A DNA stretch of 64,000 nucleotides from Luteimonas sp. 9C. Lineage in GTDB: Bacteria; Pseudomonadota; Gammaproteobacteria; Xanthomonadales; Xanthomonadaceae. The stretch spans positions 2,246,089-2,310,088 of the forward strand of contig NZ_LR733312.1 of the NCBI RefSeq assembly GCF_902506295.1. Direction: 5' to 3'. Positions 1-6,176 of the stretch are shown here, one piece after another. Within the stretch, counting starts at the first letter, position 1. Each line of letters opens with the position of its first letter. The position numbers were made by a program, and so were the translations under genes. The notes under the pieces were generated by a model. That model searched no databases, was not told the DNA's origin, and was given only the letters and a program-made list of their open reading frames with translations.

Positions 1-1165
1 CCGGCTCGGCGAAGGCACGGCGCACGGCGGCCTCGATCTCCGCGGGATTGCGCAGCCACAGGGCGGCGCGCGCGTGCTGCAGGCGCGCGGCATGGTCGAA
101 CTGGTCGTAGTCCTGCGGGCAGACGATCGCCGGACGCCCCGCGGCAAGGCACCGGTAGAGGATGCCGGCGCCGCCGTGGTGCACGACGAGATCGTAGTGA
201 TGGATCCAGCGCGCGTAGTCGACATAGGCCAGGCGCTGGTAGTTGGCCACGTGGTCGTGATGACCGGCGGCGCCGTCGCCATCGGTGAAATGGAATTCCA
301 CATCCGGCATCGCCGACGCCAGCGCACGCAGGGCTGCGTCGAAGCCGTCCTTGGCCCAGCGCAGATGCGTGCCCAGCGTGACCAGCACATGCCGGCGTCC
401 GGCGACGAAGCGCGGCGCCGGACGCGGCGCCAGCCAGGGCGTATCGCGGCCGGGCGCGGGCAGCTGCGGGCCGATGAACCGCAGCGCGGCCGGCCAGGTG
501 CGCGGAAATTCCAGTGCCTCGACACCGAGCGCGAGGATGCGCTGCGGCGAGTAGACCGCCTCGCTGCCGTCGTCGCGGTACAGCCGCGGCAGGCCCAGCG
601 CGCTCATGCGTCGGCGATACGCACGATGCACGCCGCGCTTGAAACCGCGTACCGCCAATCGCGCCAGTGCGTGCTGCAGGCGCGCGCCGGCATGTGTGGC
701 GGGCACCAGACCGCCCATGTAGGCCGGCGGCCCGTCCGGTGCTTCCAGCACGCACGGCGACGGCAGGCTGGTCCACCAGCGGATGCCGAGCGACTGCGCG
801 ACCGCACCGGCCGCCGGCACGGTGAAGTCGGCGATGACCAGCGCGGGGCGCGTGGCCGCATCCGTATAGGTATCGCGCAGGGCCTGCGCGAAGCGCGCCA
901 TCACAGCGAGCGCGGCGCGCAGTTGCCGGTGCATGCGCAGTGGACGATTACGCACGGCATGCCGCGGATCGGAAATCGCATCGAGGTCACGCTCGGCATC
1001 GGCATCGAGCAGCGGCACACCGACCAGACCGGCGCGTGCGATCTGCGCCATCGCCGACGGCGTCGACAGCACGCGCACCACGTGATGCGCGGCGAGTGTG
1101 CGCGCCATCGCGAGCACCGGGTGCAGATGCCCGCTGTAGGGCGGCGCGATCAGGTCGATGCGCAT
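1..1165 (-). CDS. UGT/MGT-type glycosyltransferase (GT1), 3' end outside window
   Basis: The start codon is at 1165 and the reading frame stays open to the left edge, so about 388 residues are visible and the C-terminus is missing. The N-terminus (MRIDLIAPPYSGHLHPVLAMA) is the typical beta-strand/loop of GT-B enzymes that act on hydrophobic acceptors. The donor-site half contains HHGGAG followed by ILYRCLAAGRPAIVCPQ, the hallmark of UDP-sugar or macrolide glycosyltransferases. It overlaps the preceding gene by 16 bp and is the last visible member of a tightly coupled six-gene run. Role inferred: transfer of a sugar to a lipid or polyketide-like acceptor made by the upstream enzymes. Donor and acceptor cannot be read from sequence. 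Confidence 0.85.
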   Translation of the reverse strand, partial: MRIDLIAPPYSGHLHPVLAMARTLAAHHVVRVLSTPSAMAQIARAGLVGVPLLDADAERDLDAISDPRHAVRNRPLRMHRQLRAALAVMARFAQALRDTYTDAATRPALVIADFTVPAAGAVAQSLGIRWWTSLPSPCVLEAPDGPPAYMGGLVPATHAGARLQHALARLAVRGFKRGVHRAYRRRMSALGLPRLYRDDGSEAVYSPQRILALGVEALEFPRTWPAALRFIGPQLPAPGRDTPWLAPRPAPRFVAGRRHVLVTLGTHLRWAKDGFDAALRALASAMPDVEFHFTDGDGAAGHHDHVANYQRLAYVDYARWIHHYDLVVHHGGAGILYRCLAAGRPAIVCPQDYDQFDHAARLQHARAALWLRNPAEIEAAVRRAFAEP

Positions 1166-1749
1166 GGCGTCGCCGCGATGAAGTCTTCGCACAGCCGACG
1201 CACCTCGGGCTGGCGCAGGTAGTCCATGTGACCGCTTTCGACGCGGTGCACCGGACCGCGCCAGCCGACGCGCGAGATCCAGTCGCTGCGGCCCTGCACG
1301 CACAGCAGGCGGGCGACGTCCGGCGCCCGACGTGCGACCGGGCCGTACGCGAAGACATGCAGGCGTGCGTGCAGGTCGGCGTCCAACTGCAGATTCGCCA
1401 GCAGTTCGAGGCCGCAACTGCCGGCGAGCAGCACGATGTGATCGGCGCCTTCGAGCATCGCCACCACCGATGCGCGGTGACGCGCTGCAAATGCAGGGCG
1501 TCGCGCGCCGATGTAGTCGCCGAGATTGCGCAACGCCGCCAGCGGCAACGGGACAGCGACGTGCCCGGTGTCGGGTGCGGCATACGGAAAGTTGCAGTCC
1601 ACCGCTTCGCGTCCGGGTGCGCGGAGCGTATCGAGAAACGCCAGTTGCTCGGGACTCAGACCACAGCGCGCGCGATCGCTGCGCCCGGTCAGGAACGCGA
1701 TGCGGATCGGCGTGGCGGCTTCAGGCGACACGGAAGCTGCCATCGGCAT
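1150..1749 (-). CDS. Small alpha/beta-hydrolase-like protein of unknown function
   Basis: About 199 residues from ATG 1749; a second in-frame ATG lies at 1743. It starts inside the 3' end of the glycosyltransferase gene upstream, so translation is probably coupled. Visible features are an early strand IRIAFLTG, a turn LLAGSCGLELL where alpha/beta hydrolases carry the nucleophile elbow, and a late VESGHMDYL where the catalytic histidine would sit. The elbow reads AGSCG rather than GxSxG, so activity is uncertain. No named family is recognised. Context suggests a tailoring or release step in the same pathway as the neighbouring KAS III and glycosyltransferases. Confidence 0.7.
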   Translation of the reverse strand: MPMAASVSPEAATPIRIAFLTGRSDRARCGLSPEQLAFLDTLRAPGREAVDCNFPYAAPDTGHVAVPLPLAALRNLGDYIGARRPAFAARHRASVVAMLEGADHIVLLAGSCGLELLANLQLDADLHARLHVFAYGPVARRAPDVARLLCVQGRSDWISRVGWRGPVHRVESGHMDYLRQPEVRRLCEDFIAATPCAST

Positions 1750-2884
1750 GCACGCGAAAGCGCCGGCTGCGCCAGCGCACCGTGCGCACGACGCTCGCGT
1801 GCAGCAGATGCAACGGCTGCAGCAGTTCGGCCAGCAGCGACAGCAGCGGGCGCTGCGGCGCGGACACGCCCAGCCTGCGCTGCAGCCATGCGGGCACGGC
1901 CGCACGCAGCACGAGCACGCCGGTCACGCAGAGGGCGCCCGTCACCGTGGGCTGCATCGCCAGCGCGATGCCCGTCGCCCACAGCAGCAGCGGCGGTAGA
2001 CCATGCAGCAGCGTGATCAGTACGCGCATGCGCAACGGCTGGCGCCGCAGCAGCAGGGTCGCGAACAGCATCCAGCGATGCATCTGGCGCAGGTAGTGCG
2101 CCGGGCCGTCGATGCTGGTGCGCACCTGCACCGGCGCGACGGTCTGGGCGATGCGGCCGCCGTGCGCACGGACCTGATCGGCCATCGCCAGGTCGTCGGC
2201 CAGCGCGTACAGCAGCGGCGCGAACCCGCCGAACGCACGCAGGCGTGCGGTGCGCAGCGCGTAGCACATGCCGTTGATCGAGACCGGCGGCGCCCACGCC
2301 AGCGGCGCGAGATAGGTCAGCGCCGCGTTGTCGTTGACGAACTGCGCCAGCAGCCGGCCCGGCAGACGCTCGCCGTCGTCGACGTAGCCCGGCAGCGCGG
2401 TTGCGATGTCGGCGGCATCGAGCGCTGTGACCAGACGCGCGAGTGCATCGGCGGTCAGCGTCGCGTCGTCGTCGAGCACCAGGCAGACCGGCGCGTCGAC
2501 GGTGGCCAGCACGCGGTCGAGCTTGAAGCTCTTGGGATTCACGCCGTCGGGCGCGGGCGGGTTGACGTGCACCGCGATGACGGCGCGCGGCCGCGCCGCC
2601 TGCAGCGCTGCGACGACCTGCCGTGCGTGCGTGTCGCCGGCGTCGACGAGCCAGTGGAAGCGCGCACCGGGCAGTGCGTCGAGCGTGCCGCCCAGTACAT
2701 CGATCAGACGCGGATCCCCACCGAGGATCGGTTGCAGCACCGCGACCTCGTGCATCGCAAAAGCAGCATCCGCACTCGGCAATGCGGCCTGCCGGTGGAC
2801 CTCCCGGGATGCGCGGGTCGCGCGCACCGCCAGCAAGGCGCCGTACGCGCAGGCGAATATCGCCGCGAGGCTCAGGCCGCCCAC
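1721..2884 (-). CDS. Family 2 glycosyltransferase, ceramide-glucosyltransferase/HpnI-like
   Basis: 387 residues from a GTG start at 2884 that overlaps the epimerase stop by 13 bp. An N-terminal hydrophobic anchor (residues 3-20) is followed by a GT-A domain with the DDD metal/nucleotide motif at residues 138-140 and a YLRQMHRW sequence matching the Q/RxxRW motif of processive or lipid-acceptor GT2 enzymes. Two or three C-terminal hydrophobic segments follow. This architecture is that of GT21-type enzymes that glycosylate membrane lipids. Inference: it glycosylates a lipid-like product at the inner membrane. The sugar donor is unknown. Confidence 0.85.
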   Translation of the reverse strand: MGGLSLAAIFACAYGALLAVRATRASREVHRQAALPSADAAFAMHEVAVLQPILGGDPRLIDVLGGTLDALPGARFHWLVDAGDTHARQVVAALQAARPRAVIAVHVNPPAPDGVNPKSFKLDRVLATVDAPVCLVLDDDATLTADALARLVTALDAADIATALPGYVDDGERLPGRLLAQFVNDNAALTYLAPLAWAPPVSINGMCYALRTARLRAFGGFAPLLYALADDLAMADQVRAHGGRIAQTVAPVQVRTSIDGPAHYLRQMHRWMLFATLLLRRQPLRMRVLITLLHGLPPLLLWATGIALAMQPTVTGALCVTGVLVLRAAVPAWLQRRLGVSAPQRPLLSLLAELLQPLHLLHASVVRTVRWRSRRFRVHADGSFRVA

Positions 2885-3828
2885 TGCGCCCGCTGCCAGG
2901 CGATGAAGTCGTCGATGCCGGTGGCGATCGACACGCTCGGCGGACCGAGATCGGCCAGCATCCGCGCAGGATCGAAGGTCTTGGAATACGCGAACACGCC
3001 GACGCCGAAGCGCGTCAGCGGCGGTTCGCCGCGCAGCCGCAGCCCGCGCCACAGCCACTCGGCGACGGTCGCCAGTCGCAATGCGGTGCCGATGGGCACA
3101 CGCCGCGTCGGCGACGGCAGATCCAGCCGCGCCAGCACGTCGAGCAGCAGCGCCTGGATGTCGACCGGCTGCGCGTTGGTCAGGTTGTAGCTGTCGACGG
3201 GGCGGTCCATCGTCGCGACGCGCAGCAGGTAATCCGAGAGCGTGTCGATCTGGATCAGATCGCCGACCACCGGCCGGTCCTGTCCGGTGAACAGCGGCAA
3301 GGCGCCGCGGCGCGCTGCCTCGAGGATGCGCGGAAACAGCACGGTGTCGCCGACGCCGAATACCGCGCGCGGCCGCACGATGACGTGTTCGCCGGGATAG
3401 TCGCGCACCAGCTGTTCGCCGGCGTACTTGGTTTCGGCATAGGTGTTGACGAACGTCGGGCCGACCGGACTGTTCTCGCGCAGGTCGTACTGGTGCGCCT
3501 CGCGATAGAACACCGAACTCGACGACAGGTACACCAGCCGCGGATGGCCGTTGCGCCTGCAGAAGTCGATGACGTGCCGGGTCGCGTCGACGTTCTGCGC
3601 GAGGTACTCGGCGCGCGTGCCCCAGGGCGACGAGCGCGCGGCGGCATGGATGACGACATCGGGCCGCACCGGCAGATCGAAGGGCCGGCTGAGATCGCAG
3701 CGGATGTAATCCGGCAGGCCGGTTTCGCGTCGACCGGTGCCGGCGAGCTGCAGATCGGCGCGCGCGGCATGGCGGCGCAGGAAGGCGCCGCCGACGAAGC
3801 CGGATGCGCCGGTCACGAGGATGCGCAT
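2872..3828 (-). CDS. NAD(P)-dependent epimerase/dehydratase (extended SDR)
   Basis: 318 residues. The N-terminus has the Rossmann motif GASGFVGG (7-14), then LSSSSVFY (101-108) and the catalytic pair Y130/K134 in NTYAETKYAGE. The overall layout resembles 3-beta-hydroxysteroid dehydrogenase/OleD-type reductases as well as sugar epimerases. Because the cluster contains a KAS III-type condensing enzyme, reduction of a beta-keto intermediate is one plausible role; modification of a nucleotide sugar for the two glycosyltransferases is the other. It overlaps the MBL gene upstream by 16 bp and the GT2 gene downstream by 13 bp. Confidence 0.88.
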   Translation of the reverse strand: MRILVTGASGFVGGAFLRRHAARADLQLAGTGRRETGLPDYIRCDLSRPFDLPVRPDVVIHAAARSSPWGTRAEYLAQNVDATRHVIDFCRRNGHPRLVYLSSSSVFYREAHQYDLRENSPVGPTFVNTYAETKYAGEQLVRDYPGEHVIVRPRAVFGVGDTVLFPRILEAARRGALPLFTGQDRPVVGDLIQIDTLSDYLLRVATMDRPVDSYNLTNAQPVDIQALLLDVLARLDLPSPTRRVPIGTALRLATVAEWLWRGLRLRGEPPLTRFGVGVFAYSKTFDPARMLADLGPPSVSIATGIDDFIAWQRAQWAA

Positions 3829-4679
3829 GCGGACCCCCCGTGTGTCGCGGCGCGATACGCATCGAGACTGGCCCGGCAATGCGACGGCAGGATCGCGACG
3901 TCCGGCGCGGCGTGCGCAAGTGTGTGCAGCCGCTCGACGGTGCCCACGTAGGCCGCCCAGTCGTGGGTCACGAGCCGCGCCGGCCAGGTCGGCAGGCGCC
4001 GCTCGCGGAACGTCAGATGCGACCAGCAGGCGTCGGCGCACAGCAGCACCGCGCGGTCCTGTGCGTCGCGCAGGCATAGCCCCAGCTGCCGCGGCGCGTG
4101 GCCCGGCATCGGCACCGCGAACAGGCGGCCGTCGCCGAACAGGTCGACGCCCTCGCCCAGGCTCTGCCAGGGCGCAGGCAGTGCACGCGCGACGCCATCG
4201 CCGGCGTAGCGCACGCGCGCATCGAAATCGGTCGGCAGCAGCGCAGGCAGCCAGCCGTTGCGCAGGCCGCGCACGCGCGACATCGCACGCATCGATTCCA
4301 GGTCCTCGCGCATGCAGATGAAGCGCGCGTTCGGCAGATCGCGCAGGCCGGCGATGTGGTCGGCGTGGAAATGCGAGACCAGGCACCAGCGGATGTCGGC
4401 CGGTCGCAGGCCGTGCGCGGCGAGCTGGACCTCAAGCCGCTGCGCCTGCGGCAGGTCGACCGGCGTCGCCCAGCGGTAGAGGCGCTCGGGGAATCCCGCG
4501 GTCGCGTCCATGAAATGCGGCGCGTAGCCGGTGTCGTAGAGGATGGCGCCTTCGGTCGGATGCACGATCAACGCGACCATCGACGGAAATGTCACGTTGC
4601 CCCAGCGCCCTCCGGCCAGCGTGACGCGCTCGCAGTGGCGACACTGGCCGACGTCGAACAGGGTCAGTTCGACGCGCAC
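3813..4679 (-). CDS. Metallo-beta-lactamase-fold hydrolase (AHL-lactonase/glyoxalase-like)
   Basis: 288 residues with the zinc-binding motif HFHADH at 103-108, an upstream LYDTG strand (48-51) typical of the fold, and later PGHAP and PSHC segments that supply further metal ligands. Length and motif order resemble N-acyl-homoserine lactonase-family proteins. Beside a condensing enzyme it could act as a thioesterase or lactonase releasing the acyl product; this is inference. It starts 1 bp after the KAS III stop and overlaps the SDR gene by 16 bp, so it sits in the middle of the operon. Confidence 0.88.
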   Translation of the reverse strand: MRVELTLFDVGQCRHCERVTLAGGRWGNVTFPSMVALIVHPTEGAILYDTGYAPHFMDATAGFPERLYRWATPVDLPQAQRLEVQLAAHGLRPADIRWCLVSHFHADHIAGLRDLPNARFICMREDLESMRAMSRVRGLRNGWLPALLPTDFDARVRYAGDGVARALPAPWQSLGEGVDLFGDGRLFAVPMPGHAPRQLGLCLRDAQDRAVLLCADACWSHLTFRERRLPTWPARLVTHDWAAYVGTVERLHTLAHAAPDVAILPSHCRASLDAYRAATHGGSACASS

Positions 4680-4680
4680 G

Positions 4681-5685
4681 TTAGTACCGCAGCACCGCGC
4701 CGCCGACCGACAGGCCGGCGCCGGTGCCGAGCAGCAGGCAGGCGTGGCCGCGCTGCAGGCGACCGGTGTCGATCGCGTGGTGCAGCGCGTGCGGCAGCGA
4801 GGCGGCCACCTGGTTGCCGTGGTCGCCGAGGATGCGCACCGTGCGCGCCTCGGGCAGACGCAGCGCCTGCACGATGCGGTCGAGGCCGCCGCCCGAGGCC
4901 TGGTGCGGCACGACGCAATCGATGTCGTCGAGCGCCAGGCCGGCCGCGTCGAGCAGGCGCGTCAGCAGACGCGGCAGGCGCCGGCCGGCCATGCGGAACG
5001 TCGCCGGGCCGTCCATCTCGAAGCGGTAGGCATCGCGGTCGTCGTTGCGCGGATCGCCGGGCGCGATACGCGTGCCGCCACCGCGGATGCGGCAGGCGTC
5101 GGCGCCGTCGGCGAAGGTTTCCATGCGCCAGGCCAGCAAGGCCGAATCCTCACCGGACGTCGCGGCGCCAAGCACCACCGCGGCGGCGCCGTCGCCGAAC
5201 AGCGGCGCGGTCACCGGATCGTCGGCGCGCAGCCCGCGCGACGGCACTTCGCTGGCGACCACCAGCACGCGGCGATACCGGCCCGCCGCGATCGAGGCCG
5301 CGATCAGATCCAGCGCGACCAGGAACCCCAGGCAGGTCGCGTTGATGTCGAATGCCGGAATGCCGGAGGTGCCGAGCCCCAGTGCACGTTGCACCAGCGC
5401 GGCCTGGCAGGGAATCGGTTGCTCCATGACCGCGCAGGTCGAGACGATCGCATCCAGCGCGCTGCCGTCGAGGCCGGCCGCGTGCAGCGCGGATTTCGCG
5501 GCGCGCGCCGCCATCCACGAGGCGGTCTCGTCCTCGCCGGCGATCCCGCGCATCGCCACACCGGTCGCGGCCTCGCTGCTGCCCGCGGCCAGCCCCAGCT
5601 GCGCGTCGAACACCGTCGAGGCCACGCGTCGCGCCGGATGATGACACCCGGTGCCGAGCACGCGCAGAGCCGCTGGTGCGTCCAT
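4681..5685 (-). CDS. KAS III (FabH-like) condensing enzyme
   Basis: 334 residues of thiolase fold. The catalytic triad is visible: Cys118 in INATCLGF, His261 in VPHQASGG and Asn291 in GDHGNQVAAS. The GAG/GIGSG-type end is GTGAGLSVGG. The ATG at 5685 shares one base with the folK stop (TGATG), so it is translationally coupled to folK. Housekeeping FabH normally lies in the fab/plsX operon; this copy lies instead with two glycosyltransferases, an SDR and an MBL hydrolase, so it is probably the chain-initiating or head-to-head condensing enzyme of a specialised pathway. It is not clearly OleA: no OleB or OleC genes accompany it. Confidence 0.88.
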   Translation of the reverse strand: MDAPAALRVLGTGCHHPARRVASTVFDAQLGLAAGSSEAATGVAMRGIAGEDETASWMAARAAKSALHAAGLDGSALDAIVSTCAVMEQPIPCQAALVQRALGLGTSGIPAFDINATCLGFLVALDLIAASIAAGRYRRVLVVASEVPSRGLRADDPVTAPLFGDGAAAVVLGAATSGEDSALLAWRMETFADGADACRIRGGGTRIAPGDPRNDDRDAYRFEMDGPATFRMAGRRLPRLLTRLLDAAGLALDDIDCVVPHQASGGGLDRIVQALRLPEARTVRILGDHGNQVAASLPHALHHAIDTGRLQRGHACLLLGTGAGLSVGGAVLRY

Positions 5686-6176
5686 CAGCCGTCGAGTCCG
5701 TCCACGCGCGCGAACGGCGTTTCGCGATCCGCATGCGCGTCCCACAGCTGCGCCAGCGGCGTGCCGTCGACCGGGTGCCGCCAGTCCGGTGCGATCTCCG
5801 CCGCCGGTCGCAACACGAAAGCGTGGCGCAGTTCGTCGCGCGGGATGCGGAGATTGCCGTCGCCGGTCAGCACCGCGTCGTCGAACAGCACGATGTCGAT
5901 GTCGAGCGTGCGGTCGCTGTAGCGCGGACCGCTGCGGTCGCGTCCCTGCGCGTCCTCGAGCGCATGCAGCCAGTCGTTCAATGCCGCGGGCGCGAGGTCC
6001 GTGCGCAGCGTCGCCGCGGCATTGAGGAAATCCGGGCCCGTGTAGCCGACCGCCGGAAAGCGGTACACCGCCGATACCACCACGTCCTCGAAGCGCGCCC
6101 GCAGCGCGGCGATCGCCGCGCGCAGATGGGTCTCGGGATCGACGTTGCTGCCGAGGCTGAGCAGGGCGATGGACAT
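5685..6176 (-). CDS. folK: 2-amino-4-hydroxy-6-hydroxymethyldihydropteridine pyrophosphokinase
   Basis: 163 residues. FolK transfers pyrophosphate from ATP to 6-hydroxymethyl-7,8-dihydropterin in folate synthesis. Diagnostic segments are ALLSLGSNV at the N-terminus, YRFPAVGYTGPDFLNAA in the pterin pocket, and the signature RYSDRTLDIDIVLFDD followed by IPRDELRHAFVLRPAAEI. The length matches the family. It lies 67 bp downstream of a mechanosensitive channel gene and its stop overlaps the start of the KAS III gene. Confidence 0.95.
   Translation of the reverse strand: MSIALLSLGSNVDPETHLRAAIAALRARFEDVVVSAVYRFPAVGYTGPDFLNAAATLRTDLAPAALNDWLHALEDAQGRDRSGPRYSDRTLDIDIVLFDDAVLTGDGNLRIPRDELRHAFVLRPAAEIAPDWRHPVDGTPLAQLWDAHADRETPFARVDGLDG

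Follow-up and report, generated by a model that had tools for sequence, protein, structure and literature searches.

By sequence comparison, the nearest described relatives of the ketosynthase considered here are MxnB, for which a second tunnel has been described, and CorB, of the myxopyronin and corallopyronin pathways. According to PMC5724707, MxnB joins two long chains in vitro and forms the pyrone of an antibiotic, and the role of the Cys-His-Asn (C-H-N) triad in FabH enzymes is described there; PMC4578411 assigns both MxnB and CorB to the FabH clade and gives the residue at a gate position as E117 in OleA, E105 in PpyS, and V94 in MxnB. Here we describe a cluster of six minus-strand genes at the start of a 64,000-nucleotide stretch of the Luteimonas sp. 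9C genome (3.35 Mb, two contigs); this whole stretch, positions 2246089–2310088 of contig 2 (C2), is referred to as the window. In order, the genes encode a beta-ketoacyl-acyl carrier protein synthase III (KAS III), a metallo-beta-lactamase (MBL)-fold hydrolase, an extended short-chain dehydrogenase/reductase (SDR), a membrane glycosyltransferase of the GT2 type (family GT21), a small alpha/beta-hydrolase-like protein, and a glycosyltransferase of the GT1/GT-B type. The analysis shows which genes are present, that their catalytic residues are intact and conserved, that they are under selection and inherited jointly, and which families and folds they fall into; from this we infer a glycosylated lipid built on a beta-oxo or beta-hydroxy acid, with all reactions and their order being our best reading. 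A glycolipid cassette of this general route is, in our estimation, probable.

The cluster begins with the KAS III gene (4681..5685, 334 amino acids) and continues through the genes for the MBL hydrolase (3813..4679, 288 amino acids, GTG start), the SDR (2872..3828, 318 amino acids), the GT21 (1721..2884, 387 amino acids, GTG start), and the hydrolase-like protein (1150..1749, 199 amino acids) to GT1 (1..1165 and on to -97 beyond the window; 420 amino acids in total). As the initial annotation had described, these genes are tightly joined and coupled to folK: base 5685 is common to the folK stop codon TGA and the KAS III ATG, one base separates KAS III from MBL, and the remaining junctions are overlaps of 16 (MBL/SDR), 13 (SDR/GT2), 29 (GT2/hydrolase-like), and 16 bases (hydrolase-like/GT1). 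The end of the cluster, which that annotation had proposed to seek to the left of base 1, was found in the genome's own sequence. GT1 ends at -97 and the next gene, on the same strand, encodes a DUF6159 protein (-207 to -1040; PF19656, 204.7 bits); therefore the cluster is complete with six genes. Past the DUF6159 gene lies a convergent SDR gene, which we read as a pteridine reductase.

The upstream neighbor folK (5685..6176, minus strand) and the DUF6159 gene mark the insertion of the six genes, which are an accessory cassette. We compared 49 genomes of the genus, including this one, with folK–DUF6159 distances read by eye from match tables. In six of the nine carriers the cluster lies between the two genes, with 5.9–6.0 kb between matches (one DUF6159 match is partial); in two it adjoins folK, with no DUF6159 match; and in one (G014) folK and DUF6159 are 160 bases apart and the cluster is on another contig. 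Thirty non-carriers have both genes on one contig, spaced 101 to 1865 bases (28 within 522 bases, the other two at 1635 and 1865), and in 10 further non-carriers folK or DUF6159 was not found in the search. It is this position in carriers, together with the closeness of the two genes in 30/30 non-carriers, that identifies the cassette as accessory. Membership in a folate operon was rejected, given the spacing of at most 1.9 kb in all 30 non-carriers and the carrier whose cluster is elsewhere. The KAS III tree places Luteimonas first beside Rhodoferax, Undibacterium, and a planctomycete, next beside Xanthomonas, and at a distance from Lysobacter metagenome-assembled genomes (MAGs; with a long-branch warning), a pattern compatible with horizontal spread.

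The genes are inherited together. Among 81 genomes, GT21 was found in 10 (the present genome, 8 of the 48 congeneric ones, and 1 of the 32 from the same order), and a KAS III at least 50% identical to this one in the same 10 and in none of the other 71, the next best among the matches listed being 36–37% identical; in the 10 carriers, no more than about 2 kb separates the two genes. A second set of 59 named loci was gathered by GT21 alignment. Being chosen by GT21, these loci give no frequency, and the set is uneven (25 are Xanthomonas, and several repeat genomes of the 81-genome sample). All six genes are present in 47 of the 59, and in 45 they have the same order and strand: 44 in Pseudomonadota and one in a planctomycete MAG. 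In 7 of the 45, additional genes separate MBL from SDR. One Verrucomicrobia and one Acidobacteria locus have all six genes rearranged. The other 12, several of them short contigs, lack the full set; they include a Propionibacterium locus with four of six genes (L079), five Chloroflexi-type loci with KAS III and two GT21-like genes (L073, L078, L081–L083), and two loci with GT21-like genes only (L074 and L075). The initial annotation had named joint conservation as the check on this grouping and Lysobacteraceae as the place to look; the cassette is indeed conserved there, and its range extends to Enterobacterales, Burkholderiales, and the planctomycete MAG, with rearranged or partial sets in other phyla. 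Against four relatives, dN/dS is 0.06–0.28 for all six genes, which are thus under purifying selection. Two side observations concern these loci. The two adjoining GT21-like genes of the Chloroflexi-type loci and of one Gracilibacteria contig (L073, L074, L075, L078, L081–L083) are 27–31% and 35–41% identical to the Luteimonas GT21, with KAS III nearby in five of the seven, and in Xanthomonas phaseoli ATCC 49119 the MBL match is in two pieces in different frames (L040 8079–8910), so that the gene may be broken or the sequence in error.

For KAS III, MBL, and SDR, 28 representatives each were chosen from the loci and aligned. The catalytic residues that had been noted as intact proved invariant in 28/28 rows of each alignment: C118/H261/N291 in KAS III, H103-x-H105-x-D107-H108 in MBL (the HFHADH metal motif), and Y130/K134 in the SDR. 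KAS III exceeds the Pfam cut-offs for ACP_syn_III and its C-domain. Throughout NCBIfam, no curated cut-off is reached by any cluster protein; the best model for KAS III is PRK07204 (346.6 bits, cut-off 402), and TIGR00747 fabH gives 208.6 bits (cut-off 292.1). Another KAS III in the genome is read as its FabH. Searched against solved structures, the single protein scores 188 bits with CorB, 186 with chain 4v2p, labeled “KETOSYNTHASE” and taken by us to be MxnB, and 174 with the best FabH. The 28-row profile widens this spacing to 337 bits for 4v2p, 329 for CorB, and 264 for the best FabH, followed by a “PQS biosynthetic enzyme” chain at 179 and, at about 105–112, PqsC together with chains that are presumably OleA.

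The gate position agrees with this placement. Residue 91 is Ile in the window (I, L, or M, together with Q89, in 32/32 cluster or core KAS III rows), compared with Phe in the genome's own FabH, Glu in its own OleA-like enzyme, and Val, again with Gln, in MxnB/CorB. The Glu base of OleA was not found in the cluster KAS III, Ile91 standing in its place. In the tree, MxnB/CorB and the cluster KAS III share one side of a branch with support of 90/91; the outside rows are two FabH and one OleA, there are long-branch warnings, and MxnB/CorB form a long branch within the broader family, beside another long row. PMC4578411 puts MxnB/CorB themselves in the FabH clade, so resembling them does not mean belonging to a class remote from FabH. 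The initial annotation's C-H-N enzyme outside a fab operon, with no OleB or OleC in the cluster, is borne out by the gene content; profile, gate residue, and tree amend it to an enzyme that is MxnB/CorB-like rather than FabH- or OleA-like. Elsewhere in the genome, at C2 2317956–2322497, roughly 8 kb beyond the right end of the window, are an OleA-like gene (PRK09258, 464.8 bits, cut-off 285; L098 2457–3506) and an OleB-like gene (haloalkane dehalogenase models, under cut-off; L098 6060–6998), with a bacteriophytochrome-like frame between them on the other strand; the Ole names are a reading from model matches.

The GT2 product is, by its models and motifs, a ceramide-glucosyltransferase-type GT21. 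Pfam Glyco_transf_21 (106.7 bits) and two more GT2-type models are above cut-off, and the only solved structure matched by its profile is a ceramide glucosyltransferase, over nearly the full length. It carries LDDD, DD, and QxxRW, which we take to be the GT21 motifs (QxxRW in 9/10 rows, LLHRW in the remaining one), and has hydrophobic stretches at residues 1–22 and 288–334. The related HpnI model TIGR03472 scores 87.3 bits, under its cut-off of 310. GT1 exceeds the cut-off for Glyco_tran_28_C, and its predicted model (predicted local distance difference test, pLDDT, 92.2) is closest in fold to kitacinnamycin, landomycin, and macrolide glycosyltransferases. The MBL hydrolase is above cut-off for Lactamase_B; its best NCBIfam model is the AttM lactonase (82.7 bits; lactonase equivalog cut-off 390), and its nearest solved relatives are acyl-homoserine lactonases. 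The SDR is above cut-off for Epimerase and others of that clan, and its best NCBIfam model is OleD, suggesting a 3-oxo acid reductase.

No Pfam or NCBIfam family covers the small hydrolase-like protein, and its profile gives a single 50-residue match to solved structures (E 0.28). In a 32-row alignment, G110-S111-C112-G113, D156, and H174 are invariant in 32/32. Minimal alpha/beta hydrolases are the closest folds to the predicted model (pLDDT 91.7), namely those of a rumen lipase, of Bacillus subtilis LipA, and of dienelactone hydrolases (E 2e-5 to 6e-5). Because the AGSCG turn resembles what we take to be the AHSMG turn of LipA, S111-D156-H174 is the likely catalytic triad, and C112 may instead serve as nucleophile. 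Across 274 genomes from this class, with at most 11 candidates scored per genome, the profile matched only the present genome; the family is therefore rare.

Put together, these families suggest the following route. KAS III, as a chain-joining enzyme of the MxnB/CorB type, would form a beta-oxo acyl product by condensing an acyl chain and a malonyl- or beta-ketoacyl-thioester, and the MBL hydrolase would free this product by thioester or lactone cleavage. The OleD-like SDR would reduce the resulting beta-oxo acid at its ketone, and the GT21, in the membrane, would transfer a sugar to the hydroxyl so formed; GT1 may attach a second sugar or glycosylate a different position, and the small hydrolase may trim or transfer an acyl group. 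The earlier outline of an acyl chain that is made, reduced, and glycosylated once or twice agrees with the families found; the changes concern the type of KAS III, the range of taxa, and the adenylating enzyme of related clusters. Several results weigh against the glycolipid route. Among the six genes there is no acyl carrier protein (ACP), transporter, or acid-activating enzyme. Homology of the MBL does not favor thioester hydrolysis, its profile placing lactonases first (up to 82 bits), far ahead of PqsE-like chains (22–24 bits). The OleD score of the SDR is 145 bits compared to a curated cut-off of 580, and its matches to solved structures are weak (best 42.8 bits). The hydrolase model superposes on solved folds with template-modeling scores of about 0.5–0.6 and root-mean-square deviations >5, and the likeness of the GT1 model to natural-product glycosyltransferases would also fit a small ketide.

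Part of the route recurs in a wider set of clusters that include an adenylate-forming enzyme. A tblastn match to such an enzyme occurs in 14 of the 59 loci (between MBL and SDR in 8 of the 14) and in no Luteimonas or Xanthomonas locus. The Yersinia similis enzyme, the only one of the 14 assigned to a family by score, belongs to TIGR02304, “F390 synthetase-related” (588 bits, cut-off 251.9). Among the 81 genomes, the 10 carriers give no match at E 0.001, and 12 others give weak matches, none above cut-off. Four enteric loci carry a second SDR, which is OleD-like in Y. similis. The Y. similis and Cedecea versions further contain genes for a PAP2 protein, a fatty acid hydroxylase, and two desaturases (by Pfam and tblastn, respectively), and the presence of these genes inside the Y. 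similis version supports a lipid substrate.

With the Y. similis adenylating enzyme as query, 27 plasmid records match; for GT21, 72,556 plasmid records yielded none. We inspected the neighborhoods of 10 of the 20 matches listed, one of which is without annotation. Five of the nine annotated records have KAS III, SDR, MBL, and F390 genes in a row (Escherichia coli, Ketogulonicigenium, Paraburkholderia, Paracoccus, and Pseudomonas FeN3W), two have the same core with an ATP-grasp gene inside (Paenibacillus and Pontibacillus), one has it spread over 10 kb (Leaf58), and one has no core partner annotated (P. amygdali). All four KAS III rows of the core that were placed in the tree group with the cluster KAS III. 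In the E. coli UPEC 26-1 island (L104 8001–14882; also L092), which sits between narI and tRNA-Tyr genes, the order is KAS III, SDR, MBL, F390, PAP2, sterol desaturase family, acyl-CoA desaturase; at least 80% of this island is present in 671 of 5426 complete genomes, about one in eight. No glycosyltransferase is annotated beside the core in the stretches inspected from E. coli (two records), Paenibacillus, Ketogulonicigenium, Paraburkholderia, Pontibacillus, Paracoccus, and Pseudomonas FeN3W. The core is thus common to these clusters, and the glycosyltransferase genes, and with them the sugars, look like tailoring of the present variant. Genes for ATP-grasp enzymes were seen in the Paenibacillus (L094 5836–7080), Paraburkholderia (L096 10301–12573), and Pontibacillus (L101 6054–7193) versions, with GNAT genes in the first two; their presence points to a branch of this module that would form amides.

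Within the glycolipid reading, the KAS III residues bear on what is joined. A gate residue smaller than Phe would allow a longer chain, an argument that draws on the role of E. coli Phe87, and an enzyme that lacks the Glu base would need a partner that is decarboxylated or already activated. Together these leave two options: one chain plus malonyl, or two chains. The first is plausible and held tentatively. KAS III would elongate an acyl thioester with malonyl-ACP, and the product would be freed and reduced to a 3-hydroxy acid with sugars on its hydroxyl, giving a rhamnolipid-like 3-(glycosyloxy)alkanoic acid. The C-H-N triad is as in FabH enzymes (role described in PMC5724707), and 3-oxo acids are, by the family name, substrates of OleD-type reductases; set against these are the preference of the KAS III profile for MxnB and CorB over the best FabH and the tree that separates them from the FabH/OleA rows, with the long-branch warnings noted above.

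The second option is somewhat doubtful. Here KAS III would fuse two acyl chains, one of them beta-ketoacyl, into a branched beta-oxo acid or a pyrone/lactone that MBL would open and the SDR reduce, so that a mycolate-like, alpha-branched beta-hydroxy acid is glycosylated. The nearest solved relatives of KAS III, MxnB/CorB, join two chains according to the cited work, the small residue at position 91 with Q89 resembles the V and Q of MxnB/CorB more than the F or E of the genome's own FabH and OleA-like enzymes, and the MBL is lactonase-like. The long branch of MxnB/CorB beside another long row means, however, that their chemistry may be derived, and the lack of a Glu base such as that of OleA and PpyS calls for an activated partner. 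An extension of the two-chain option is rather unlikely as a whole: that the clusters form a new cross-phylum family of lipid pathways, in which an MxnB/CorB-type KAS III fuses two chains outside a polyketide synthase (PKS), a lactonase-type MBL opens the product, an OleD-like reductase yields a mycolate-like beta-hydroxy acid, and GT21 and GT1 complete a glycosphingolipid-mimicking glycolipid, with a non-glycosylated, desaturated cousin made by the E. coli island.

We consider it improbable that the cassette makes a small, diffusible ketide or pyrone with sugars attached, acting as a signal or antibiotic, with MBL as a lactonase for turnover or self-protection. The acyl-homoserine lactonase relatives of MBL, the GT1 fold, and the antibiotic pyrone made by MxnB (PMC5724707) would suit such a product; the full-length similarity of GT21 to ceramide glucosyltransferase, its membrane-like stretches, and the desaturases and fatty acid hydroxylase of the Yersinia version do not. 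That the cassette is a relocated part of Ole hydrocarbon, hopanoid (HpnI), or sphingolipid glycosylation pathways, as an OleD-like SDR and an HpnI/ceramide-glucosyltransferase-like GT2 might suggest, is highly improbable and disfavored by the separate OleA-like and OleB-like genes, a KAS III without the OleA Glu, the low model scores (87 of 310 bits for HpnI), and two weak negatives from the genome itself: no hopene cyclase match (0/14 control genomes are above cut-off either) and no 3-ketosphinganine reductase above cut-off (17 weaker SDR matches; no control, including Caulobacter, passes).

In the open-licence literature searched, we found no description or product of the cluster, in keeping with the initial annotation's failure to recognize one, and likewise no paper on the E. 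coli island and no mention of “F390 synthetase-related” or TIGR02304; the F390 synthetase passages of PMC2649909, PMC5467263, and PMC9823363 do not describe the cluster. A compact cassette that keeps its order across Luteimonas, Xanthomonas, Enterobacterales, Burkholderiales, and a planctomycete MAG thus has no described product that we could find. With six genes, few enough for one-by-one deletion or expression, that product is directly testable, and so is the role of MxnB/CorB-like KAS III enzymes outside pyrone antibiotics.

Compared with known systems, the cluster combines familiar parts in a different setting. In quinolone signaling, PqsD is a KAS III-like enzyme that works with an MBL thioesterase, PqsE, an analogous pairing; the present cluster differs in the low PqsE-like scores of its MBL profile and in a PQS enzyme score that falls under FabH. 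With the Ole pathway (OleA–D) it shares a KAS III-type enzyme and an OleD-like SDR, and related clusters have an adenylate-forming enzyme; it differs in lacking the OleA Glu, OleB, and OleC and in adding MBL and two glycosyltransferases. Its GT21 shares Glyco_transf_21 and a near-full-length match with the solved ceramide glucosyltransferase, and differs from HpnI in scoring under that model's cut-off, in a genome where hopene cyclase was not matched. MxnB/CorB give the best scores for the KAS III family of the window and share with it the C-H-N triad, a Q-x-small-P sequence at the gate, and a similar motif around the active-site Cys; the window cluster differs in having, without a PKS assembly line, MBL, SDR, GT21, alpha/beta hydrolase, and GT1 as partners. 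The KAS III, SDR, and MBL of the TIGR02304 core belong to the same broad families as those of the window. Compared to it, the window cluster is without the adenylating gene, has the SDR after MBL, and carries GT21, hydrolase, and GT1 in place of desaturases, sulfotransferase, and ATP-grasp/GNAT.

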